Assembly (NCBI GenBank): GCA_000701625.1
Contig: JNJK01000012.1
Span: forward strand, 1 to 64,000
Source: Lachnospiraceae bacterium MC2017
GTDB lineage: Bacteria > Bacillota > Clostridia > Lachnospirales > Lachnospiraceae
Direction of reading: 5' to 3'
DNA length: 64,000 bases
The position numbers were made by a program, and so were the translations under genes. Positions 6,476 to 63,065 of this stretch are shown here, piece after piece (position 1 is the first letter of the stretch; every line of letters begins with the position of its first letter). The notes under the pieces were generated by a model that was not told where the DNA came from, did not search any database, and saw nothing but the letters and a program-made list of their open reading frames with translations.

Positions 6476-6991
6476 TCAGCCGGCAGAGCTAATTGCATTC
6501 TCATAAGCCTTCAAAGTAGCTTTATCAAAGCATACCCATTCGATAAGGTCAAATGATTGCTGATCCTTCTCTGTATATTCCTTCACCGCAGCTACCGCAA
6601 CTGCTGCCGCTTTTTCTACCGGATAGCCGTATATTCCGGTGGATATTGAAGGAAATGCGATTTTCCTTATTCCTCTTTCCTTTGCAATCGAAAGAGAGTT
6701 TATATAGCAATTCTTAAGCAAATCCGATTCGCCTCTTTCTCCACCGTGCCACACAGGGCCAACTGTATGTATCACGTATTCACAGGGAAGCTCGTATGCT
6801 CCGGTGATCTTTGCTTCTCCTGTTCGGCATCCGTTTAAGGTCCTACACTCCTCCAAAAGCTTCGGTCCCGCAGCCCGGTGGATAGCACCATCAACACCTC
6901 CACCGCCAAGCAGCGACTGATTCGCTGCATTAACGATTGCTTCCACATCATCCTGCTTCGTAATATCACCAAGGATTGCCTTTATAACCAT
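6476..6991 (-). CDS. Macro-domain ADP-ribose hydrolase (YmdB-like)
   Basis: The 171 residues make up a single macro domain: GDITKQ at the start, IVNAANQSLLGGGGVDGAIH as the signature loop, and a late ISTGIYGYP loop that binds the distal ribose/phosphate. Family members bind ADP-ribose and remove O-acetyl or mono-ADP-ribose groups. ATG 6991 has GGAGG upstream. It is the first gene of an apparent two-gene transcript with feoAB; the pairing does not suggest an obvious shared pathway. Confidence 0.93.
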   Translation of the reverse strand: MVIKAILGDITKQDDVEAIVNAANQSLLGGGGVDGAIHRAAGPKLLEECRTLNGCRTGEAKITGAYELPCEYVIHTVGPVWHGGERGESDLLKNCYINSLSIAKERGIRKIAFPSISTGIYGYPVEKAAAVAVAAVKEYTEKDQQSFDLIEWVCFDKATLKAYENAISSAG

Positions 6992-7104
6992 AAAAACACC
7001 TCCTATTTATCCACTCTTTCTTTATATATCGTACCATATTACCAAAATATACTCATCTGATCTATTCCGACATTCTCAAAAATACTCTAGTTCGCCTAAA
7101 TATT

Positions 7105-7147
7105 AAAGCGTCAAAAGCTTCATTTTAAACTCAGCTTTTGACGCTTT
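7105..7147 (-). terminator. Terminator of the repeat lipoprotein gene
   Basis: Arms AAAGCGTCAAAAGCT (7105-7119) and its complement (7133-7147) enclose a 13-base loop, 30 bases after the stop of the gene at 7178-9076 on the minus strand. Confidence 0.75.
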
Positions 7148-7177
7148 GATCGTATTATGACATGTATAAAGAACCAA

Positions 7178-9076
7178 TCAGATTACTTTAACTTTGAATC
7201 TATACTTCTTCTTTGTTCCATTCTTATCTTTTATGCTGCTTCCACGATATACAGCATAAATGGTTGCTGTACCTTTTCCCTTTACATCCATTTTTCCGCT
7301 GCTGCTATCGATCGTGACGACAGATGGCTTAGATGATATCCATGTAGGGGTAATATCATCACATGTAATGTATTCACAGCCATTATGACTGATGCTCGTA
7401 CTTTCCTCTAATTCGATTTTTTTGCTCAATACATTTGGAACTTTTACATGCATTGTGACACTTCCGAGCTTATTTTTGGATTTCTTATCAAATGCGGAAA
7501 TTGTAACATCGCCGGATTCTTTAGTAAATTTAACAATTCCCTTACCATTGACCTTGGCGATCTTTTTATTGTCTGTTTTGTATGTAACACGCTCTTGATT
7601 AATATCGAGATATTTTTTTATGTTCACAGAAGAACCAGCGATAAAATCATCAGACACGGTAACATTAAAATCTTGAACTAACAAAGCATAATTATGTTCT
7701 GCTTCAGTTTGATTATCAAAATAATTATAAAGATGAAGATAATAAGTACCGGTTTTTTTAGCTACAAAATCAAAATAATTTATACCATATTTCTCCATGT
7801 ACCAGCTCATTCTATAGCCGTTGGTTTTAACCTCGTTATCATTCGGATCAAAAAAATTCAAAAGCATCGTTGTCGGTTCAAATTCGCCATTATAATCATC
7901 CATCCAGAATCTGTATCTTTCATTTTTTTGTAAATCAACAGAGTACCAGTCTACATCTTCACCGTCTTTTTTATATTTTTTGTAAGAGCCTAATTCACCG
8001 ATACATTCCTCGTTAACTGTCAGCTTGGTTGCAGTAGCTTTAGAACTATTTGGTTCTACCTCATATCTAACCCCTGGTTGTCTTTTTTCTTCTTCTTTTT
8101 CTTCTTGTTCAGAAGTGATGTCAGTTACCAGCCATGTGTAATAATGCTCTACCCCGTATCTAAGACCTAAATAATTATAAAGTTTGATGTAGTAAGAGCC
8201 AGAATATTTAGCAGTATAATCATAATCATTAGATCCGTTTCTCTGCATGATATAGCTGATTGGCGATAACAAATTTCCGTTTTCATCATACATTTCAATA
8301 ATCAGATAAGTAGATGAGAAATCATTGATATAATCATCCATGTTAAATCTATATTTACGTCCTGCAGATAGGTTTATGTGATACCAATCGATATCCATTT
8401 TATCGTCCCGGTTATATTTATCAAAGGAACCTATTTCTCCCCTACATCTTTGGTCTAATGTGAGATCAGTAGCCGCTATTATAATGTCATTAGGTTCTGA
8501 TTCAAATATATCGACATGATAACCATCTGTGATATCATCAACCTGAAGGAAATAATAATGATCATTTCTCGTATTTCTGTAATCAATATAATTACTTATT
8601 TTTATATAATATGTTCCTGTATTTTCTGGCTCGAATTCATAGTAATTGATTCCGTATTTTCTAAAGCTATAATCCAGGGTATCGATATTATTATTGCTGT
8701 TATCAAACAACTCTACATACAAAAACGTGGATGCAAAATCCCGATTGTAATCATCGAAATTAATCTTGTATTTTTTACCTTCTTTAAGTTTTACTGAATA
8801 CCAATCAACATCTTCTCCATCAGTCTTATATTTTTCATAAGATCCAATTTCACCCTTGCAAGGCTCGTTTATGGATAATTGAGTGGCAGCACTTTTCCAG
8901 TTATTCGGTTCTATTTCTTCGTCCGGCAACTCATTTTCACTATTACTTTGAATACCGGAATCACTTTCTACAGAAATATTATTCTCTGCGCCATACGAAA
9001 AATGACATGGCGATAAACAACCAGTCAACAAGGCGAAGGAAAGCACAACTGCAATACGACCCTTAATTCTTCTCAT
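7178..9076 (-). CDS. Secreted lipoprotein with three PPC-like repeats and Ig-like C-terminus
   Basis: I place the start at ATG 9076 because GGAG sits nine bases before it, while ATG 9094 has no ribosome-binding site. The protein (632 aa) has a signal peptide with lipobox LLTGC. Three repeats of about 130 residues follow, each with an EPN..(K/N)..AT.L..(N/D) opening, a (C.)GE(I/L)GS(Y/F) turn and a VDWY or IDWY strand. This is the pattern of bacterial pre-peptidase C-terminal (PPC) domains. The last 150 residues contain Big2-like strands (KKIAKVNGKGIVKFTKESGD, then KPSVVTIDSSSGKMDVKGKG). No catalytic domain is seen, so an adhesive or substrate-binding surface role is likely. A second Cys (PC, shortly after the lipobox) is odd. 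Confidence 0.85.
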   Translation of the reverse strand: MRRIKGRIAVVLSFALLTGCLSPCHFSYGAENNISVESDSGIQSNSENELPDEEIEPNNWKSAATQLSINEPCKGEIGSYEKYKTDGEDVDWYSVKLKEGKKYKINFDDYNRDFASTFLYVELFDNSNNNIDTLDYSFRKYGINYYEFEPENTGTYYIKISNYIDYRNTRNDHYYFLQVDDITDGYHVDIFESEPNDIIIAATDLTLDQRCRGEIGSFDKYNRDDKMDIDWYHINLSAGRKYRFNMDDYINDFSSTYLIIEMYDENGNLLSPISYIMQRNGSNDYDYTAKYSGSYYIKLYNYLGLRYGVEHYYTWLVTDITSEQEEKEEEKRQPGVRYEVEPNSSKATATKLTVNEECIGELGSYKKYKKDGEDVDWYSVDLQKNERYRFWMDDYNGEFEPTTMLLNFFDPNDNEVKTNGYRMSWYMEKYGINYFDFVAKKTGTYYLHLYNYFDNQTEAEHNYALLVQDFNVTVSDDFIAGSSVNIKKYLDINQERVTYKTDNKKIAKVNGKGIVKFTKESGDVTISAFDKKSKNKLGSVTMHVKVPNVLSKKIELEESTSISHNGCEYITCDDITPTWISSKPSVVTIDSSSGKMDVKGKGTATIYAVYRGSSIKDKNGTKKKYRFKVKVI

Positions 9077-9135
9077 TCTCTTTTTCTCTCCCATAACAAA
9101 AATTAATTTTTATTTAATATAAAATTAAATTTTTA

Positions 9136-9729
9136 TTAAGTATAGCATTTTTTTCTGGAACAGGAAATTGAGGACGAGGTTTGTGGACCTTTTTTGGTCC
9201 TACACCCCCGTCTAGTGTCCCTGGCTTTCTGCTTACGTCCTTCCATAGTCTGTACAAGAATATTCTCACGTTCAAGCTCTGCAACAGCAGATAGGATTGA
9301 GATCATCAATTTTCCGGACTCTTTGGAGCTGTCAATCCCATCCTCAACACATATAAGTTTTACTCCAAAATCCTGCATAAGCTGAAGTGAATTTAAAACA
9401 TCCGCAGCATTTCTCCCGAAACGTGATAATTTGAACACAAGAACAAAACTAACATCATCCTTGCCTTCCTCTATGTCTTCTAACATTTTCATAAATTCAG
9501 GTCTTCCTGCTATATTTTTTCCCGAATGACCTTCATCTGAATATTCCCCTACAACATCCATTTCTTCATATTCTGCATATCTCTTTAGTTTATCTCGTTG
9601 AGCATCTAAACTAAATCCATCGACCTGCATCGCAGTTGAAACACGAGTATAAATATAACAGCTTGTTTTCTTCTTTTTTGCCATATACATCGCCCCCTTT
9701 TGATTGAAAACCCCCGTTGACAATGACAT
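9136..9729 (-). pseudogene. Serine recombinase, truncated after the catalytic domain
   Basis: The reading frame has the resolvase N-terminal fold: YTRVSTAMQVDGFSLDAQ with the catalytic Ser, YSDEGHSGKN, and KLSRFGRNAADVLN followed by LERENI. Large serine recombinases of this kind (normally about 500 residues) continue with a recombinase domain and zinc ribbon. Here the frame leaves the family sequence after about residue 165 and ends in a Ser/Lys-rich tail at 197. It is therefore probably a dead remnant of an integrase. SD GGGGGCG lies near the internal ATG (MAKKKKT). The position near the rlmD 3' end fits integrases that use that gene as a target. Confidence 0.75.
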
Positions 9730-9766
9730 TTATCTGATTTATTATAATTAATAAGAAATGGGTTTT

Positions 9767-10321
9767 TTACTGAGTAAGGTTCTCGGACTGGAAAAGGTTA
9801 CTCGTTTCTTTTTTTATGTTCATAATGTCATATAAGTATTTCTTTCCGTCCTTAGCATGTCTAAAAATCATTGCAACATGAAATACGTTATATCTTTCGA
9901 CATCCCCATTATCTCCATATACCGGAAGGGCAAATCTTGATTCGTACTTATACCATCCATACATCGCATCCTTCTGATGTTTTGTTTTGGTATTTTCTGT
10001 ATATTCCATATTTGTAGCTGTAATAACAAGCTCCGGAATACCTTGTGCAGCATTAGCCTTAGCTTTTTCATTTGCACCTCGAAGGATATTCGTGTAATTT
10101 GAATGAGCATACTCATCAGGAAGATCCGAGCCGATATATACAACATCATTTGTTTCCGCTATTGTATATAGTTCTCCGACATAACGTTTCAGATATGCCT
10201 CAACCTCGATCCAATTTATACCGCGTTTTCCTCTGAATATGATGTCATTAATGATAACTATATTGTTTCCTACTGTGTCCTTTATCACAGATATATTTCT
10301 ATTATTATTCAGACTCTCCAT
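9767..10321 (-). CDS. Uncharacterised mobile-element protein, 184 aa
   Basis: The protein is soluble, with recognisable conserved-looking blocks: VEAYLKRYVGELYTIAETND, YIGSDLPDEYAHSNYT, KAKANAAQGIPELV, ALPVYGDNGDVERYNVF and YLYDIMNIKKETSN. From memory this matches a widespread Lachnospiraceae module found alone or as the last domain of very large mobile-element proteins, with no characterised function; a nuclease-toxin role is one possibility, not shown here. It starts inside the last 17 bases of the upstream HTH gene, so the two are translationally linked. ATG 10321. Confidence 0.7.
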   Translation of the reverse strand: MESLNNNRNISVIKDTVGNNIVIINDIIFRGKRGINWIEVEAYLKRYVGELYTIAETNDVVYIGSDLPDEYAHSNYTNILRGANEKAKANAAQGIPELVITATNMEYTENTKTKHQKDAMYGWYKYESRFALPVYGDNGDVERYNVFHVAMIFRHAKDGKKYLYDIMNIKKETSNLFQSENLTQ

Positions 10322-10637
10322 TTTTGCTTTTTATAAGACTCTCCTGTCTTGTATTAAATCCTTTCTCTCTCATATTTTTTTGCAGCTCATCGTAGTATGC
10401 TTTATACCGATAGGCTGTTCTCCGGCTTATCCTTCCCTCTGATACAATCTCAACAATTGTCATTCCGCTCTCGTACTTGATTACAAAATCATTATATGAT
10501 TCTGTCCATTTTGAATTATGCTTCTTCCTTCCTGCATTCTTACGTTGTTTATAATCTTCTAATTCCGCACGCAGTTCAGCATTTTCTTCTTCAAGTTCCT
10601 TTATTCTTTCCAGTGTATCTTCCAATGTTTCGATCAT
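10305..10637 (-). CDS. Small coiled-coil plus helix-turn-helix DNA-binding protein
   Basis: Of 110 residues, 1-35 form a leucine-zipper-like coiled coil (LEDTLERIKELEEENAELRA) and about 48-90 a resolvase/Hin-type HTH (GMTIVEIVSEGRISRRTAYR). There is no recombinase domain. It resembles small DNA-binding accessory proteins of mobile elements. SD GGGG is upstream of ATG 10637. Its promoter at 10678-10706 matches the sigma-A consensus exactly and an inverted repeat overlaps the -35 box, so self-regulation is plausible. Forms an operon with the 184-aa gene. Confidence 0.75.
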   Translation of the reverse strand: MIETLEDTLERIKELEEENAELRAELEDYKQRKNAGRKKHNSKWTESYNDFVIKYESGMTIVEIVSEGRISRRTAYRYKAYYDELQKNMREKGFNTRQESLIKSKNGESE

Positions 10638-49103: not shown

Positions 49104-49775
49104 TTACTTCAGCAATGCTGCTGCAGCTGCTCTCTTTGCATTAAAATCAGCCTGAGCTGCAAGGTTTGATGCATAGAATGCTGCAAGTTTTGTCTGATAC
49201 TCAGCATAAGCTGCCTGGCCTGCTGCTGTCTGAGCTGCGCCAGTTGCAAGCTGCTGTGCATAGAATGCTGCAAGATTCTGCTGGTAAGCTGCGAATGCTG
49301 CCTGACCTGCTGCTGTCTGAGCTACTCCAGTTGCGATCTGCTGTGCATAAAATGCTGCAAGATTCTGCTGGTAAGTAGCAAATGCTGCCTGGCCTGCTGC
49401 TGTCTGAGCTGCGCCATTTGCGAGCTGCTGTGCATAGAATGCTGCAAGATTCTGCTGATAAGCTGCGAATGCTGCCTGACCCTCTGCTGTCTCAGCGATT
49501 CCCTTAGCAACCTGAAGAGCTCTGAACTGCTCAAGAGCTGTCTGGTAAGCAGTGTAAGCTGCCTGACCTGCTGCTGTGTTAGCTACTCCCTGTGCTACCT
49601 GAGCGGCTCTGAATGACTCAAGTGCGCTCTGGTAGGAAACATAAGCTGCTGTGCGCTCTGCCTGAGCTGCGTTTGCTGCTGCTGCTACCTCTGCGTAATT
49701 AGCTGCCGAAACAGGTATTACAGACATAACTGCAACTGTGAGGCATACAAATAATGCTGCGATCTTTTTCTTCAT
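49104..49775 (-). CDS. Secreted alanine/glutamine-rich tandem-repeat protein
   Basis: A clean signal peptide (MKKKIAALFVCLTVAVMSVI, cleavage after VSA) is followed by five repeats of 29 residues. The repeat unit is close to TAAGQAAFAAYQQNLAAFYA plus QQ.A.G.AQ, and the last one degenerates. The mature protein is almost entirely Ala, Gln, Tyr and Phe and would be helical; there is no anchor, so it is released or held non-covalently. I know no characterised homologue. A strong promoter (49819-49847) and terminator suggest high expression as a single gene. Confidence 0.88.
   Translation of the reverse strand: MKKKIAALFVCLTVAVMSVIPVSAANYAEVAAAANAAQAERTAAYVSYQSALESFRAAQVAQGVANTAAGQAAYTAYQTALEQFRALQVAKGIAETAEGQAAFAAYQQNLAAFYAQQLANGAAQTAAGQAAFATYQQNLAAFYAQQIATGVAQTAAGQAAFAAYQQNLAAFYAQQLATGAAQTAAGQAAYAEYQTKLAAFYASNLAAQADFNAKRAAAAALLK
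49213..49648 (-). repeat. Five 87-bp tandem repeats within the gene
   Basis: The marker GCCTG(A/G)CC recurs at about 49213, 49300, 49387, 49474 and 49561, a fixed 87-bp step equal to 29 codons. Copies differ mainly at third positions and at a few codons. Confidence 0.9.
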
Positions 49776-52867: not shown

Positions 52868-52891
52868 ACATTAAATTCGTAAATGAACGTT

Positions 52892-52932
52892 AAAAAGGTT
52901 GTGAAGAAAAATCGCTTCTTCACAACCTTTTT
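52892..52932. terminator. Bidirectional intrinsic terminator
   Basis: AAAAAGGTTGTGAAG and CTTCACAACCTTTTT form a 15-bp stem between the HIT gene and the convergent oxidoreductase. Confidence 0.9.
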
Positions 52933-53607
52933 TCACTTTTTTGCCAATTCTATCTGAACCAGATTTGTGTGCTGAGGATTGCCTTTACAAAGCGGAGTCG
53001 GATATGCCGTAGATGTAAGTACATTTATACATCCTCTCGTATCAACTCCTTCTTTATCCGGTGTATACCATGCGCCCTGCGCCATCGCTGCTGCGCCCTG
53101 ACAGATTCTTCCGGTTACTACCGCCGGTATCCTCACTCTGCCGCGTTCATTAAATACTTCTACCTTATCTCCGTTTTTAATGCCGCGCGCCTTTGCATCC
53201 ACCGGATGTATCCATACACCCGGCTTTTCCACCTCATCCTGCCACTCATTATTGTCATGAATTGAGTGTGCTCGACGTCTCGTATGCCACCCGATAAGCT
53301 GCAAAGGATATTTTCTACGCATAGGGTCTTCCGGTCCCTCCGGGCATGGGATATATTTCGGTATCGCAGATACTCCCGGTCTATCCATGTCATAAAGCCT
53401 TTTTGAAAAGATCTCGATTTTTCCGGAAGGTGTCGGGAACGGATGATTTACCGGATCTGCTATTTCCTTCTCGTATGCGACACACCTTATCTGTTTCTTA
53501 TACTGCCATCCACCTTCTCTACAAAATGTCTCATACTCGGGCAGTTCCGGTTCCATACCTCGAATATGTTCATAGTTTTCTTTTAACCAGACATTAAGCT
53601 CCGGTCG
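52933..53607 (-). pseudogene. C-terminal part of the molybdopterin oxidoreductase, after an in-frame TGA
   Basis: These codons continue, with no frame change, from the TGA at 53610-53608 that ends the upstream reading. They encode the last part of the large subunit, including the molybdopterin-dinucleotide-binding domain (FPTPSGKIEIFSKRLYDMD, GDKVEVFNERGRVRIPAVVT, and the ending CKGNPQHTNLVQIELAKK). An internal ATG at 53556 with GAGG could start a separate 207-residue product, but that would lack any active site. Most simply the gene is broken by a single nonsense change; readthrough is not excluded. Confidence 0.8.
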
Positions 53608-55737
53608 TCAATCGGTAAATGCTTCATATACTCCGAGCTTCCGTGCAACCTCTTTCATCCACTCCCACTCAAACCGGCATCCAAAGAAAGGGCGCAGCAC
53701 CTGATTATGCTTTAGATAATAATTTGTGCCCGCCCATGAACCGATTACATTTTCCCCTTCAAGGAAAGACGTGGCAGGAAGTACCAGATCCGAACATCTT
53801 GCGCTTGGTGTCATAAAGACATCTGAGCATATGATCATTTCACACTTAGAGTCATCACTAAGGATCCTCCGTGTATCATTGACATTACTATGCTGATTTA
53901 TGAGGATGTCGCTGGCCATGCTGAACAATACTTTTATATTACTATTCAGTTTCTTGACCCCACGCAGCCCATCCTCTTCAGGCATCATGTCGGTTCCCTT
54001 CTCTATTGCTTTTGTCCATAAAAATGTAGGTATCTTTCCGGGATACGGGTTTTTGACAGTATCCAGATAGTTCATCATCTTTTTATGCTCAGTTATCCTG
54101 CTGGTATTTCCGCAGCTGCTTCCTCCGCTGATACCCACATTTCCTGTGAGGCAGGAAAGCATCATCATGGCTCTTGCAGACTGTTCACCATTTCCATGTC
54201 GCTGAGCTCCAAATCCGGCATCTATGCAGGCAGGTTTTGTTGTGGCATATTCCCGTGCAAGCATTCTTATCCGATCTGCCTCAATACCTGTGATAGCTTC
54301 TGCCCATTCAGGTGTCTTCTTAATACCATCTTTTTTACCAAAAAGATATGCATGGTAGCTCTCCTCTGAGGGAACTCCCTCCGGCATATGATCCTCATCA
54401 AAGCCTATGCAGTAAGTGTCCATAAACTTCTGATCCTGCAGTCCCTCTTCAAAAATAACATATGCCATTGCATCCGCCAGTGCAGCATCAGTTGAAGGCC
54501 GCAGCGCAAACCATTCGTCCGCATAAGCAGCACCGGTCTGGCTGAGTCTCGGATCTATGACTATGATCTTTACGCCTTTCCTTTTTAGCTGTGACAGGTA
54601 GTAGTTTTTTTCCGATCCAAAAATAGTTTCTGCCGGATTACTTGACCATAGGATCATAAGCTTTGTGTCAAGCTGACATATCGCACTGTCACCTCCCAAA
54701 GCATTGCCGTACACGTAGTTGGATATAGCCGTAACACAGGCAGAACTGTAGGAATTGTACGCATCAAGATAACCACCTGTGAGACTCAGAAGCCGGCTCA
54801 TCATCTGACCCGGGTTCATAATGCCGCATACCCCCGTTCCGTACAGCAAAAATCGGCTTTCCGGACCATAAAGTTTCTGTGTGCGAGAGATACTTTCCGC
54901 GATCAGGTCAGTTGCCTCGCTCCAGCTTATCCTCTCAAATTTGCCGCTCCCTCTTTCTCCCATTCTTCTCATAGGATAACGGAGTCTGTCTGGATTTAAG
55001 TATGTCTTTCTATAACCTCTTCCACGGACACAGGCACGGATCTGCGGAGAATGATCTTCGCAGCAGTCTGATTCGATCTGAAGAATGCAGTTATCCTTAA
55101 CATGTGGACGGATAACACAAATACCTCCACAGTTATTCATTCCCCCTGTAGGAACGATCTTTTCGTTTTCAGTTTCAATTTTCGGATTCAGCTTAAAACT
55201 TCCACTACAAAAATCATCTTCTGCCGGCTCCCATTCACTTAATGTCTTTAAGAGATCTTCAAAATATGCCGTAATCCCGGAAAAAGCGTCCGTATAATCC
55301 AAAAGACTCCTGTATACTGCACGAAGTCCGATAAGCAGATAATTGTCCAAAAAATCGACAACTTCCTCTACACGAAGCGAAGTTGCTTCATCCGATGCGC
55401 CTATAAGATATCCTAGAAAGCGTAGCTGCTCACCGAGATAATCAGGAGGATTTCCCTCTATCCACTGAGGTTCATATCCCCATCTATGATAAATCTCAAT
55501 GATCTCAAGAGTTGTCCGATTCAACAGAACCTTTTCACCCATATATACAGATGCCCACAAAGGGGCATGGAAATCAGCATCCATTCCCCGAAAGCAGAAA
55601 TCGTAATTCAATTCCCACTCTCTTTGGCTATGAGATGACCAATCAGAGAACCCTCGACATATCTCTATGGCTTTTTCACGGCTTTCTAAAAAATCCGCGC
55701 CTCGTTTTATCCTATTTAGTATTGTTTTTCTATTCAT
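53608..55737 (-). CDS. TorD-like chaperone domain fused to a molybdopterin oxidoreductase (truncated by TGA)
   Basis: The 709-residue reading has two parts. Residues about 20-165 match the TorD/DmsD chaperone family (APLWASVYMGEK, EIYHRWGYEP, NPPDYLGEQLRFLGYLI). From about 200 it follows the DMSO-reductase family: NNCGGICVIRPHVKDN and RACVRGRGYRK (Cys 203, 207 and 236; the first cluster Cys seen in many relatives is not at the expected place), GKFERISWSEATDLIAE, the Mo-ligand region YNSYSSACVT (Ser 331 or 332) and VIDPRLSQTGAAYADEW. No Tat signal is present, so the enzyme is cytoplasmic. The position of the TGA (codon 710) suits a Gly in relatives. Electrons should come from the adjacent ferredoxin and FAD subunits. 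Substrate unknown. Confidence 0.88.
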   Translation of the reverse strand: MNRKTILNRIKRGADFLESREKAIEICRGFSDWSSHSQREWELNYDFCFRGMDADFHAPLWASVYMGEKVLLNRTTLEIIEIYHRWGYEPQWIEGNPPDYLGEQLRFLGYLIGASDEATSLRVEEVVDFLDNYLLIGLRAVYRSLLDYTDAFSGITAYFEDLLKTLSEWEPAEDDFCSGSFKLNPKIETENEKIVPTGGMNNCGGICVIRPHVKDNCILQIESDCCEDHSPQIRACVRGRGYRKTYLNPDRLRYPMRRMGERGSGKFERISWSEATDLIAESISRTQKLYGPESRFLLYGTGVCGIMNPGQMMSRLLSLTGGYLDAYNSYSSACVTAISNYVYGNALGGDSAICQLDTKLMILWSSNPAETIFGSEKNYYLSQLKRKGVKIIVIDPRLSQTGAAYADEWFALRPSTDAALADAMAYVIFEEGLQDQKFMDTYCIGFDEDHMPEGVPSEESYHAYLFGKKDGIKKTPEWAEAITGIEADRIRMLAREYATTKPACIDAGFGAQRHGNGEQSARAMMMLSCLTGNVGISGGSSCGNTSRITEHKKMMNYLDTVKNPYPGKIPTFLWTKAIEKGTDMMPEEDGLRGVKKLNSNIKVLFSMASDILINQHSNVNDTRRILSDDSKCEMIICSDVFMTPSARCSDLVLPATSFLEGENVIGSWAGTNYYLKHNQVLRPFFGCRFEWEWMKEVARKLGVYEAFTD

Positions 55738-55748
55738 GGCATCCCTCT

Positions 55749-56939
55749 TTAAAATGTCACAGGCACATTTCTCATTTCACTGATATCCCCCATTAGTACG
55801 ATGCCGCAAAGCTTTCCATCACGATAGAAGCTTTTACGATATGTCTGCATACCGCACTCATTGTGATTTACTCGAAACATGTGGTTCTGATCTTCTGAAT
55901 GACTGAAACACGATACTTCAGCGATAATCCCATCTTCTTCCTGTGTGCTTCCCGATGCAAAAAGTCCTATACCCATTGCTGTCAGTATCACCGGAAAATT
56001 TCCCACCCGGAATAAACGCATATCGTCAGTATGGACAGCATTATATCCTGCTGTATCACCGGATACTTTAGCAAATTTCCATAGACCGGGGTTTGGTATG
56101 CTGCACTGAACGCAGTCACCGGCAGTGAGGATATCCGGATCGCTTGTAACCAGATACTCATCGGCCAGCACCCCACGATCACATTGAATTCCGGATTCCT
56201 TTGCAGGAATGATCACAGGACGTACACCTGTAGAAAGCACTACGATTTCAGCTGGAAAAGTTCTTCCATCTAAAAGACGAACTCCTGTAACCGCCTCCTC
56301 TCCTGTAAGCTCAGATATCTGCACTCCTGTATGACATTCGATATCTATTCCTTCAATATGGCTTCTAAGCCGCTCTGATGCTTCTTCATCCAGTTGACGT
56401 GCCATGAGCCTGGGCGCCGCTTCCAAAATGGTACAATGAATCCCCATCTTGTGCAGTTCCCATGCCATTTCCATTCCGATGATCCCTCCGCCTATAAATA
56501 CTGCACGTTCAGCAGTCATGGCCTTTCGGCGTAAATTATGAAAATCACGGACTGTACGAAGTGTAAGAACACTCTTTTTATCTTTCCCCGGAATAGGCGG
56601 AACAAAGCAGGACGCACCAAGGGCATAGATACATTTCTTATATGGGCGCACTGTGCCGTCATCCAGTTTTACGATGTGTTTATCGCGATCTATCTCTGTC
56701 ACGCATCTGCCCTTTATAAGGTTGATCCTGTTTTCTTCGTACCAGTTGTCTTTTGCGGCATATATATTATTTTTTCTGAATCTCGCAAAATCCGTTTTAC
56801 TAAGGAGCGGTCTTAGATAAGTCTTTTCATTTTCTGCTCCGACCATTGTGATATCAGCAGAAGGATCTTCACGACGGATAGCAGATGCAGCAGAGAAACC
56901 AGCTATACCACTGCCCAGGATTAAATACTTATCACTCAT
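55749..56939 (-). CDS. FAD-dependent NAD(P)H oxidoreductase subunit
   Basis: The 396-residue protein has the pyridine-nucleotide disulphide oxidoreductase fold: FAD motif LILGSGIAGFSAASAIRRED, NAD(P) motif AVFIGGGIIGMEMAWELHKM and the late ILTAGDCVQCS. It resembles the NirB N-terminal or rubredoxin-reductase class, without redox-active Cys pair or thioredoxin motif. GGAGGAG precedes ATG 56939 inside the ferredoxin gene end (8-base overlap). It probably passes electrons from NAD(P)H to the ferredoxin and on to the molybdenum subunit, replacing the quinol-oxidising membrane anchor of Dms-type enzymes. Confidence 0.92.
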   Translation of the reverse strand: MSDKYLILGSGIAGFSAASAIRREDPSADITMVGAENEKTYLRPLLSKTDFARFRKNNIYAAKDNWYEENRINLIKGRCVTEIDRDKHIVKLDDGTVRPYKKCIYALGASCFVPPIPGKDKKSVLTLRTVRDFHNLRRKAMTAERAVFIGGGIIGMEMAWELHKMGIHCTILEAAPRLMARQLDEEASERLRSHIEGIDIECHTGVQISELTGEEAVTGVRLLDGRTFPAEIVVLSTGVRPVIIPAKESGIQCDRGVLADEYLVTSDPDILTAGDCVQCSIPNPGLWKFAKVSGDTAGYNAVHTDDMRLFRVGNFPVILTAMGIGLFASGSTQEEDGIIAEVSCFSHSEDQNHMFRVNHNECGMQTYRKSFYRDGKLCGIVLMGDISEMRNVPVTF

Positions 56940-57489
56940 TTTTCTCCTCCTTTTTCAAAACCAGGAGATTAGGTTTTGTGAGCTTAGGATCCGGCAAAAA
57001 AGGAAGTGCACTGGTGTACTTACTTTTTTCTTCTTCTGTCAGCGTATCCAGATCACCAAATCTCAGACAATGGGTTATGCACGCCTCCACACATAACGGC
57101 TGCTTTCCCTCCTGTCTTCTGTCAAAGCAGGCATCACATTTCATGGAACGCCCTGTCACATGGCTCAGTTTTGGAGCCCCATAAGGGCAGACCCACGTAC
57201 AGGTTCCGCATCCTATGCACATATTTTGGTCCGGAGCGATAGTTCCATCGCTCTGTTTATGCATAGCACCTGTAGGACAGTTTGCAGCACAAAGCGCAGC
57301 CGAACAATGATTGCAGGCGCCGGAATAGTGAACGGTCTGAAACTTTCCATTTTCGTCTGTGATCTCAAATGACTCTGCACGTCTGAAAAACAACCCCAAT
57401 TCCAGATCATGCCCATCCTTGCATGCCATCTGACAGGCATTGCAGCCAATGCACCGGGTTTGATCATATATAAATCCATAGGTCGCCAT
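56932..57489 (-). CDS. Four-cluster ferredoxin subunit (DmsB/HycB-like)
   Basis: The 185-residue protein has four Cys groups: CIGCNACQMACKDG, CNHCSAALCAANCPTGAM, CIGCGTCTWVCPYGAP and CDACFDRRQEGKQPLCVEAC. This suits a DmsB/NrfC-type electron-transfer subunit carrying up to four 4Fe-4S clusters. AGGAG precedes ATG 57489. It sits between the flavodoxin/SCP2 gene and the FAD gene, and its stop overlaps the FAD gene start. Confidence 0.95.
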   Translation of the reverse strand: MATYGFIYDQTRCIGCNACQMACKDGHDLELGLFFRRAESFEITDENGKFQTVHYSGACNHCSAALCAANCPTGAMHKQSDGTIAPDQNMCIGCGTCTWVCPYGAPKLSHVTGRSMKCDACFDRRQEGKQPLCVEACITHCLRFGDLDTLTEEEKSKYTSALPFLPDPKLTKPNLLVLKKEEKNE

Positions 57490-57523
57490 AATTCTAAACT
57501 CCTGACATCATTTTTAGCCTCAA

Positions 57524-57551
57524 AGGGCACCTGCAAATATGCAGATGCCCT
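57524..57551 (-). terminator. Stem-loop after the flavodoxin/SCP2 gene
   Basis: AGGGCAcCTGCA and TGCAGaTGCCCT (lower-case bases mismatched) form a strong stem. It lies between that gene and the ferredoxin gene, so it may reduce but not block read-through; the following minus-strand bases (CTTTGAGG) are only weakly U-rich. Confidence 0.5.
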
Positions 57552-57615
57552 GATATTCAACAACTCATTTCATTCAAATGTGTATAAGTTCAAACTGTTT
57601 TTGGAGCAGTCTTTT

Positions 57616-58638
57616 TTATACTAATTGCGGTTCCGGCTTTGCCGCTCCCTGAAAATTAAATACCGTATCCAGCATACGAAGCATGCGGAAATCTCCCTTT
57701 ACCTGCATCTCACCTGACATAAAAGCATTCTGGAAAGTAAGTTCTCCCTTTGTGATCTGATCAAGTTTTTCCTGCGTGAGCTTGCAAAGAACAGTCTGCT
57801 CATCACGCTTTTCATATGTTATATTCAGTACTTCATCATGTACTTCTATGATCATCGGCTTTCCCATTCCCTTGATCACAAACTGGTAAACTGCCTCAAA
57901 ACTACTCTGCGGTACGAAATGACTTCTAAAGGAAGCACTTATTACCTCATCCTCTGACTTACCATCATTCTTTAGAAGTGTTCGGAAGTGATCCGTCAGC
58001 TCACGGATATCCTCTTTCTGCTTCTGTACATAATTATCATCCGATGCATATCTGGAAAGCTGCTCTGTTTCCTGAGGGGTAAGGTCGATCGGCTCTCTGG
58101 TATTTACCATCTGTGTCATAGCCTGATTACTTGCAGGCAATGTAACAGTTCTCCTGGAAACCACTCTGTACAGATTTTCTGCTGCCTTTTCTATAAGCTT
58201 TATATATTCCTGATTGAGTTCAAATGCTACAGGATCACGCACATACGCCGAAAGACCATTGCATAATTTTCCTCCCAGAAGATCCCATGCTGACTGCAAT
58301 GTAAGAAGCCCCTGTCTCTCTCCAAAAGAAGTTGACATAACAACAGGCATCATATATATACCTGTCATTTTTTCCTTATTTCCGTAAAACCAGCAGGCAT
58401 CCAGAAATTCCGTCATATATCCGCCGATACCAAACCATTCGACCGTAGTCGCAAGTATCGCGCCGTCTGCGTCATTCAACGTACTTGGCAATGCTGTGAT
58501 CTTTCTCTTTTCATCATAAAGATTGATACGTTCAACCTGTACATTCAGTTCCTCCAAAACTGACTGCATCCTTGTCAGGACAAATAACGTGGGGTCCCCT
58601 ACAATTCCACGTCCTCCGTAATAAATATTTATTTTCAT
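57616..58638 (-). CDS. Flavodoxin-fold NAD(P)H oxidoreductase fused to an SCP2 domain
   Basis: The first 160 residues look like an NAD(P)H-dependent FMN reductase/flavodoxin-type fold: INIYYGGRGIVGDP, GAILATTVEWFGIGGYMTEF, PVVMSTSFGERQG. A middle linker follows (about 165-220). The C-terminal 110 residues match SCP2 sterol-binding domains (QFVIKGMGKPMIIEV, then FMSGEMQVKGDFRMLRMLDT). SCP2 domains bind hydrophobic ligands, so a substrate-delivery or lipid-linked role is possible. GGAGGAG precedes ATG 58638. First gene of the redox operon. Confidence 0.87.
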   Translation of the reverse strand: MKINIYYGGRGIVGDPTLFVLTRMQSVLEELNVQVERINLYDEKRKITALPSTLNDADGAILATTVEWFGIGGYMTEFLDACWFYGNKEKMTGIYMMPVVMSTSFGERQGLLTLQSAWDLLGGKLCNGLSAYVRDPVAFELNQEYIKLIEKAAENLYRVVSRRTVTLPASNQAMTQMVNTREPIDLTPQETEQLSRYASDDNYVQKQKEDIRELTDHFRTLLKNDGKSEDEVISASFRSHFVPQSSFEAVYQFVIKGMGKPMIIEVHDEVLNITYEKRDEQTVLCKLTQEKLDQITKGELTFQNAFMSGEMQVKGDFRMLRMLDTVFNFQGAAKPEPQLV

Positions 58639-61689: not shown

Positions 61690-62106
61690 TCAAAATACAA
61701 CACCTATTATGAACGCAGCCAAAATAAATGGAGCAAACGGAAGTTCCGCATTTCGCCCACACCTGCGGGTCAATATCAAAACTATCGAAAATACAGCGGA
61801 CAGCACAGATGCCACCGTTAATAGTCTTATATTTTCAAACGTTCCCAGCAAAACCCCCGTGACAATAAACATAAGTCCATCTCCTGCTCCTATCTTCCCT
61901 CTCGTAAGATGACTTATAACAAGTAATGCAATTCCAGTAAAAACTCCTCCTGCGATATCCATCACGCCTCTGCTAAGACTCATACTCTGCCATAGGATCC
62001 CTAATATAAAAAACGGAAGGAGCAAGACAGGATATATCATCCTCTTTCGTATATCTGTTACTGAACAGATCAAAAGACACATTCCAACTAAGATATTTAC
62101 GATCAT
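61690..62106 (-). CDS. Prepilin peptidase (A24, TadV-like)
   Basis: I use ATG 62106 with AGG upstream; a longer open frame runs back into the TadE/G-like gene. The 138-residue membrane enzyme has the paired Asp sites of A24 peptidases (CSVTDIRKRMIYP and IGAGDGLMFIV) and about five helices. It is the short form without an N-methylating domain, as in Tad systems. Confidence 0.92.
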   Translation of the reverse strand: MIVNILVGMCLLICSVTDIRKRMIYPVLLLPFFILGILWQSMSLSRGVMDIAGGVFTGIALLVISHLTRGKIGAGDGLMFIVTGVLLGTFENIRLLTVASVLSAVFSIVLILTRRCGRNAELPFAPFILAAFIIGVVF

Positions 62107-62120
62107 TTCTGCCTCTTTTT

Positions 62121-63065
62121 CTACATTCCGCAATCCGAACACGGCGGAAGTCCTGTCTCTGACAACGGTACCACTCTTATCGTCCTTTTTAGTCCCGGAC
62201 AGGTCACTGATGAATGCCATCTATCGCCATCCTCGGTTATGTAAAGATCATCTCCATCAGACACCTTTCCCTTTCCGCAGTGTTCACACGGATAATACTT
62301 ACCACCTCCGGCATTGCGTTCTGTTCCTACGCTTGCCGGAGTAGTCTCCCGTATAGTGAGATCCAGATGTCTGCATCTTCGGTTCCTGTGGTATACAGTC
62401 CCATGTTCCGTGACATATACCATCTCTTCATCCGTCCCGATGTCCTGACTACTTGTGTTGTCATAACCTGTATATGCCCGTATCCTCGCTCTGTCTGCAA
62501 CCTTAAAACTCGGAGACCCCAAAAATGGAATATCTGTGCGTATCTTGTAGACAGCCGACAGATCTATCATCTGATCGCTACCCATAAGCGATGAATGTAT
62601 AAAGCTTATCCCGTCACTTCCGTTTTCAACAGGTGACTCATCTGCATAATCCCTTCCCAGATCGTCGAGCGTCATACTCTTTCCGGCTGTCACCGAGATG
62701 ATCCTGCCGGCGGTTTCCCCTATTGCTCCTCCGTTGCCCGGCATATAAAAATACGCATAGGAATAATTTGTCATATTGCGAGCAGCCTGATGTAAAGATG
62801 CCTGCATATTTCCGGAAAAGCGTATAGCTTCTATAAGCATCATGAGTCCGACCACGGCAAAAAGAAATAACGGCAAAGCAATTGCCGTTTCAAGCGTCAA
62901 ACTTCCCTTAAAGAAAGCGGATACAGATGGTATTTCACCCGTGTTTAAGTTTTGTTTCGGGTTATGTTTATTTATTTCTTCGGGGGATTTACTTGTAAAT
63001 ACAGACTTGTTTTTTAGTTTACATAATGTATCATGCCATACATTAATTTTTTGGTGAAATACCAC
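62121..63065 (-). CDS. TadE/G-like membrane protein with duplicated Cys/His module
   Basis: The start is GTG 63065 with GGAGG upstream. The 314-residue protein has an unusually long basic head, a TadE-type helix (G-SLTLETAIALPLFLFAVV), a soluble domain, and two similar C-terminal modules. Each has a strand (YVTEHGTVYHRNRRC or YITEDGDRWHSSVTC), an L-x-T-I-R turn and an ending CEHCG or CSDCG. The spacing His-x3-4-Cys and C-x2-C suggests a zinc or metal site. I know of no described function for it in pilus assembly. Confidence 0.85.
   Translation of the reverse strand: MVFHQKINVWHDTLCKLKNKSVFTSKSPEEINKHNPKQNLNTGEIPSVSAFFKGSLTLETAIALPLFLFAVVGLMMLIEAIRFSGNMQASLHQAARNMTNYSYAYFYMPGNGGAIGETAGRIISVTAGKSMTLDDLGRDYADESPVENGSDGISFIHSSLMGSDQMIDLSAVYKIRTDIPFLGSPSFKVADRARIRAYTGYDNTSSQDIGTDEEMVYVTEHGTVYHRNRRCRHLDLTIRETTPASVGTERNAGGGKYYPCEHCGKGKVSDGDDLYITEDGDRWHSSVTCPGLKRTIRVVPLSETGLPPCSDCGM

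Follow-up and report, generated by a model that had tools for sequence, protein, structure and literature searches.

A portable three-gene module in Lachnospiraceae bacterium MC2017 predicted to encode a soluble, NADH-fed reductase of the DmsA/YnfE type

DmsABC and YnfEFGH of Escherichia coli, the dimethyl sulfoxide (DMSO) and selenate reductases, combine a TIGR02166 catalytic subunit with a DmsB-like subunit carrying four iron-sulfur clusters, and have a chaperone of the TorD/DmsD family. NasB/NasC of Bacillus is an NADH-dependent assimilatory nitrate reductase, a cytoplasmic molybdenum enzyme that receives its electrons from a NirB-like flavin adenine dinucleotide (FAD) protein, and PadH/PadI of the NADH-dependent phenylglyoxylate dehydrogenase are an FAD and iron-sulfur pair that exchanges electrons with NAD(H). 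Ucdh of the gut Clostridial Enterocloster bolteae is also a cytoplasmic, NADH-fed molybdenum reductase, for which a role in NAD+ regeneration has been suggested (PMC12771579). Here we analyse a window of 64,000 nucleotides (positions 1 to 64,000 of contig JNJK01000012.1, assembly GCA_000701625.1) from Lachnospiraceae bacterium MC2017, in which three adjacent genes, termed B, F and A, appear to encode an enzyme related to these systems.

An earlier note on this DNA had described a set of four genes, and they are indeed found at that place and in that order on the minus strand, as S (57616-58638), B (56932-57489), F (55749-56939) and A. B is a 185-residue DmsB-type electron-transfer ferredoxin with Pfam matches to Fer4_11 and other 4Fe-4S dicluster domains, whose cysteine spacing, read from the sequence, fits four clusters; its best NCBIfam match, DMSO_dmsB (TIGR02951), scores 167.3 bits and lies under the 214.1-bit cut-off of that DmsB equivalog. 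F is a 396-residue FAD/NAD(P)H oxidoreductase (Pyr_redox_2, 194.5 bits) resembling the N-terminal part of NirB, PadH and NorW, its matches to these models all lying below their cut-offs. A combines a TorD-family domain with a DmsA/YnfE-type molybdenum subunit. From its start at 55737 it extends in one frame to 52933, broken by a single in-frame TGA at 53608-53610. The first part (53608-55737, 709 residues, ending at the TGA) matches Nitrate_red_del, the NarJ/TorD/DmsD family PF02613 (44.4 bits against a gathering cut-off of 22.2, residues 34-131), and Molybdopterin (168.7 bits). What follows the TGA, still in frame (52933-53607), is the dinucleotide-binding domain (Molydop_binding, 97.1 bits, 52933-53556); the first ATG of this second part lies at 53556, and the 207 residues from there bear the match. 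In S, the flavodoxin-like N-terminal part gives a sub-threshold FMN_red match only (20.4 vs 24 bits), besides an SCP2 domain of 32.7 bits (cut-off 21.3). The B and F frames share 8 bp and 11 bp separate F from A, whereas the gap between S and B measures 126 bp and contains a 12-pair hairpin. Thus, the four genes are a three-gene module with operon-like packing, B-F-A, and a neighbour, S. Co-transcription of B, F and A and assembly of their products into one complex are presumed.

We read B-F-A as an operon gained by horizontal transfer that encodes a soluble, cytoplasmic, NADH-fed reductase of the DmsA/YnfE type acting on an S-oxide, an N-oxide or a related oxyanion, and give this reading a probability of about 0.62. 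Electrons would pass from NADH to the FAD of F and onward by way of B, with its four iron-sulfur clusters, to the bis-molybdopterin guanine dinucleotide molybdenum of A, which would remove an oxygen atom from the substrate. The fused TorD domain would replace the signal for twin-arginine translocation (Tat) and help to load the cofactor in cis, nothing would be exported, and S would take no part. The gain for the cell would lie in NADH reoxidation during fermentation, as an electron sink, or in the repair of oxidised metabolites, rather than in quinol respiration. That the enzyme is fed by NAD(P)H through an FAD subunit standing in place of the membrane anchor had been proposed before and is supported, the donor being suggested by the family of F. 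The acidic residue that ends the second nucleotide-binding strand of F suggests that NADH is preferred over NADPH.

Compared with DmsABC and YnfEFGH, B-F-A shares the TIGR02166 catalytic subunit, the four-cluster subunit, the active-site serine by alignment and a chaperone of the TorD/DmsD family. It differs in that the chaperone is fused to A and an FAD/NAD(P)H subunit replaces quinol oxidation, and neither a DmsC anchor nor a Tat-exported catalytic subunit, the marks of a DmsABC-type respiratory complex, was found. Unlike NasB/NasC, which likewise supplies a cytoplasmic molybdenum enzyme through a NirB-like FAD protein, B-F-A has a separate DmsB-type ferredoxin, a catalytic subunit of the DmsA rather than the Nas type, and the TorD fusion. 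The same genome holds another pair of this general kind on contig C8 (locus L101, C8:21000-39000), where a second NirB-like FAD protein is found near a Nas-like molybdenum enzyme at 6728-10490, and nearby frames, when read, resemble MoeA and MobB. PadH/PadI differ from B-F-A in their catalytic partner, and F and B match the corresponding models below the cut-offs. Ucdh is reported to belong to the xanthine oxidase family (PMC12771579), in contrast to the DMSO reductase family of A. B-F-A is a known kind of enzyme in an unusual, portable and probably soluble arrangement. Among the literature matches listed, judged by titles and the beginnings of abstracts and with most subscription journals outside the search, none described a DmsA protein fused to TorD and served by an FAD/NADH subunit, which for B-F-A agrees with the earlier note, whose author knew of no described system with this set. 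The words 'fusion' and 'fused' are absent from the text of PMC4464133, and 'fused' from that of a paper reporting 53 molybdenum oxidoreductase genes in Desulfitobacterium strain DCB-2 (PMC3306737). A survey of rumen genomes used DmsA as a marker (PMC6776011).

The family assignment of A is carried by its intact relatives. Five of them, the A proteins of four intact B-F-A loci and one ferredoxin-TorD-molybdenum fusion (L103), were scored against TIGR02166 (DMSO/selenate reductase A subunit), and all five pass the cut-off of 777.7 bits with 862-901 bits; the two pieces of A in the window reach 620.4 and 244.9 bits, each alone under the cut-off. The best matches of A in the PDB are DMSO and trimethylamine N-oxide (TMAO) reductases (to 1e-77), and its SYSS/DYST stretch falls under the DYS of DMSO reductases of known structure. 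Across 14 of 21 relatives aligned with the two pieces of A, the serine aligned with this DYS, which we take to be the molybdenum ligand in DMSO reductases, is kept in all 15 rows that cover the site, as is the tyrosine aligned with YGW. A dehydroxylase, which the earlier note had allowed for, is not suggested by these results. For a phenol- or catechol-dehydroxylase-like enzyme that handles plant or host compounds without the help of S, one could point to the NADH-fed dehydroxylation by a xanthine-oxidase-family enzyme in E. bolteae, a gut Clostridial. In the same report, however, the two DMSO-reductase-family enzymes of E. bolteae are less than 22% identical to characterised catechol dehydroxylases (PMC12771579). 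Moreover, the intact relatives exceed the DmsA/YnfE cut-off, and in the PDB the match to pyrogallol hydroxytransferase (7.8e-38) is far weaker than those to the DMSO and TMAO reductases, catechol dehydroxylase sequences lying outside this comparison; we consider such an enzyme very unlikely. The exception models within the family do not separate YnfE/YnfF (637.5-681.3 bits in the five relatives) from DmsA (662.0-674.4 bits), which leaves room for the idea that A detoxifies an inorganic oxyanion such as selenate, tellurate or chlorate in the manner of YnfE/YnfF. All of these models, however, stay far under their cut-offs of 1600-1675 bits, and nothing metal-related was noticed on reading the neighbourhoods, where no search for it was made. 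We regard detoxification as distinctly unlikely, though less so than dehydroxylation.

The view that the reductase is soluble, cytoplasmic and free of a DmsC anchor, taken over from the earlier note, stands: the genome gave no match to DmsC, whose model is weighed below, or to TatC, and A has no twin-arginine signal. None of the five A proteins has a pair of arginines in its first 45 residues. The genome searched for TatC is 99.98% complete, and the model used matches 11 of 14 control genomes, including E. coli. Eleven of the 21 other genomes with a related A were searched for both proteins, and DmsC (PF04976) was matched in none of the 11, other anchor families not having been searched. As to cofactor supply, moaA is found on contig C38 of the genome (329.5 bits, over its cut-off) beside frames that read like other molybdenum genes, and two further molybdenum or tungsten enzymes are encoded on contigs C2 and C8; the genome seems able to make the molybdenum cofactor. 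TorD binds two sites on TorA and aids cofactor insertion even without a signal peptide, according to a review (PMC10609526), and this fits a TorD domain fused to its client in a Tat-less host. The fusion in such hosts would naturally split the two jobs proposed for TorD, guarding of the signal peptide and cofactor insertion.

To find related modules we scanned contigs with one protein query, not an alignment, so that distant relatives are missed. The scan returned three loci, from Oribacterium sp. C9 (L072), Oribacterium sp. WCC10 (L074) and an uncultured Lachnospiraceae metagenome-assembled genome (L073). In all three the order is B-F-A and A is a single open frame of 935-960 residues; the first part of A is 84% identical to its counterparts in C9 and WCC10 and 54% identical to that in L073, and B is 85-88% identical in the two Oribacterium loci. 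In wider samples, A was matched in 7 of 393 genomes of the class (E <= 1e-60) and in 13 of 397 genomes of the window's family (E <= 1e-80), the own genome being included in both counts, and 1159 records of a plasmid collection match A, all at less than 60% identity. B-F-A is present in four of the 21 loci compared, the three above and L105 (genome G739), and S in none of these four. The surroundings of the module, read by eye, vary: phosphotransferase-like genes precede B in C9, ATPase and von Willebrand-type frames precede it in WCC10, and a MobA-like frame follows A in L073. The frame after A in WCC10 has an energy-coupling factor (ECF) transporter match below its cut-off (26.7 vs 30.7 bits). 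In C9, a 189-residue flavodoxin-fold gene (L072:11144-11713; PF02525, 76.3 bits, no SCP2) lies 314 bp after A and is unrelated to S by tblastn. B-F-A is thus a portable three-gene unit.

Other relatives of A are organised differently. In L103:5980-9498 and L104:6340-9714, ferredoxin, TorD and molybdenum parts are joined in single frames of 1172 and 1124 residues, and L069 has a TorD gene of its own next to an A with a twin-arginine-like start. A broader reading, which we offer tentatively and find almost as easy to believe as to doubt, is that a DmsA-type lineage in the window's family and class has left respiration. It would have lost anchor and export and swallowed the chaperone and in places the ferredoxin, giving a soluble enzyme that matures itself and draws electrons from NADH or other soluble donors; in hosts without TatC, its TorD part would be a cofactor-insertion domain only. 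If the proposed function of B-F-A is right, an enzyme class known chiefly from membrane respiration would have here a soluble form linked to NADH. In its fermenting carriers (Oribacterium and the Lachnospiraceae metagenome-assembled genome, which is labelled as from rabbit) it could divert electrons from hydrogen, and it could act there on dietary or drug sulfoxides and N-oxides.

The in-frame TGA bears on whether A works in this strain. The ratio of nonsynonymous to synonymous substitution rates (dN/dS), which near-saturation of synonymous sites makes rough, was 0.034-0.103 in six of eight comparisons of B, F and the two parts of A with C9 and WCC10; for the first part of A it was 0.045 and 0.034, and for the second 0.042, the other comparison of this part not being computable. 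The lengths of B and F are exactly those of the C9 and WCC10 genes. Low ratios and kept lengths thus indicate that constraint on the genes lasted until a short time ago; the stop is probably recent, or else an assembly error. The enzyme is probably inactive in this strain, unless the TGA is such an error or is bypassed by read-through, or the two pieces come together. For these ways of leaving A unsilenced speak the low ratios on both sides of the stop against intact relatives, the kept lengths of B and F, and a GAGGT-like stretch that abuts the first ATG after the stop. With zero spacing between the two, however, initiation at this ATG would be poor, and since the TGA falls at an ordinary residue of the relatives, away from the aligned active-site serine, selenocysteine is unlikely. 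An unsilenced A is on balance unlikely.

Several points weigh against a soluble, NADH-fed DmsA/YnfE-type reductase. The DmsC model (PF04976), which found nothing in the own genome, matches just one of the 14 control genomes (E. coli), and anchors of the NrfD/PsrC type were not searched. TatC, unmatched in 8 of the 11 relatives' genomes, is present in C9, WCC10 and G739. B and F are each under the cut-off for their best 25 NCBIfam models (of 43 and 57 matched, respectively). F is next to A in only 4 of 21 loci by tblastn and is not a universal partner; seven TorD-fused relatives have no F in the stretch fetched, namely the ferredoxin fusions L103 and L104 and the TorD-molybdenum fusions L107 and L109 (fusion seen by tblastn), L066 (by Pfam), and L067 and L110 (by alignment only). 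The front iron-sulfur motif of A (residues ~197-236) is atypical. Three of its cysteines are kept in 15 of 15 rows, and the usual first one, judged by the E. coli layout, is missing in all 15 (L110 has a cysteine one residue off). In 10 of 15 rows, including all five B-F-A proteins, another cysteine stands ten residues beyond the second one and might replace the missing ligand. Because of this motif, and because PF04879 has no match in the window's A protein or in that of WCC10, the electron path from B to the molybdenum may differ from that of DmsAB. Two of the eight dN/dS comparisons gave no ratio, their synonymous sites being saturated. Predicted structures were poor and unusable, with a mean predicted local distance difference test (pLDDT) score of 35.4 for S alone and 35.3 for the A protein of WCC10 (three sequences). 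Finally, the substrate class, an S- or N-oxide or an oxyanion, and the physiological role are things that we infer.

S is a long-established gene of the genus. At E <= 0.001 it has matches in 45 of 61 genomes, including the one that holds the window, and in 31 of 36 genomes of the same genus, in G022 by two short fragments only; the first part of A, in contrast, was matched at E <= 1e-40 in one of the 61, the own genome. We retrieved stretches around S from 38 of the 44 other matched genomes, some of them short contigs down to 4.7 kb, leaving out G022, G037, G038, G040, G045 and G058 for short or weak matches. S was recovered in 37 of the 38 loci (tblastn, 1e-8), within 400 bp of a HIT gene in 27 of the 37, of a rhomboid gene in 17 and of either in 31, and at the same threshold none of the 38 contains B, F or A. 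In G009 and G014, where S is 99% identical, HIT directly follows S and there is no module, and both junctions, when aligned, locate the module inside the S-HIT intergenic stretch; B-F-A is thus a local insertion next to S. Conversely, S has no match at 1e-3 in the 21 loci with a related A, or at E <= 0.01 in the genomes of L072, L073 and L074, with the query that matched 45 of 61 genomes elsewhere. The insert flanks (52868-52960 and 57480-57640) have no direct or inverted word of 8-16 bases in common, no transposase was seen by eye among the open frames of the insert, and the GC content (insert 0.449, left 0.441, right 0.422) is not diagnostic.

The earlier note had made S, as a lipid-binding flavoprotein, a component of the enzyme. 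With S kept across the genus without the module and the module found elsewhere without S, neither this role nor the four-gene set can be upheld, and the idea of a hydrophobic ligand, whose only stated ground was S, is left unsupported. A lipid or sterol substrate reached through S was rejected on synteny. An inserted operon can borrow a neighbouring gene in this way and mislead guesses of function that are based on operons. In this strain S does lie on the same strand 126 bp upstream of B with no rule-defined terminator between them, so that read-through transcription is possible, and C9 has its flavodoxin-fold gene after A. A four-component enzyme in which the flavodoxin/SCP2 protein delivers a hydrophobic substrate, perhaps to a dehydroxylase, is nevertheless scarcely credible, given the distribution of S and of the module and given the hairpin that separates S from B, at a place common to two Oribacterium modules.

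This leader hairpin, a 26-base palindrome of 12 pairs (57525-57550, minus strand), lies just before the ribosome-binding site of B. The 71 nucleotides upstream of B fold with z-scores of -3.5 in the window, -4.0 in C9 and -3.6 in WCC10, and the same test indicates no hairpin in L073 (1.0), L105 (-1.1), L103 (-0.5) or L104 (0.5). By alignment the C9 hairpin is a near copy, and WCC10 has in that position a hairpin of different sequence; the palindrome motif itself occurs in 2 of 114 loci, the own genome (L001) and C9 (L072). Its presence in C9 too suggests that the hairpin arrived with the module, setting B-F-A apart from S. Possible roles are those of an attenuator, an operator or a structure that stabilises the transcript.

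At the other end of the module, a terminator-like hairpin (52892-52932) with a 17-pair stem and a T run on the plus strand separates the end of A from the HIT gene that converges on it; terminator-like sites in the region number 4 against a shuffle mean of 5.0, not above chance, and this one was judged by its stem length. No Rfam family reached its gathering threshold in the window, and no tRNA was found there. Elsewhere in the window, read by eye, a 223-residue alanine- and glutamine-rich protein with a signal-like start and repeats of about 29 residues is encoded at 49104-49775, and the frames at 61690-63065 resemble components of a tight-adherence system, namely a prepilin peptidase and a pilin-like protein.

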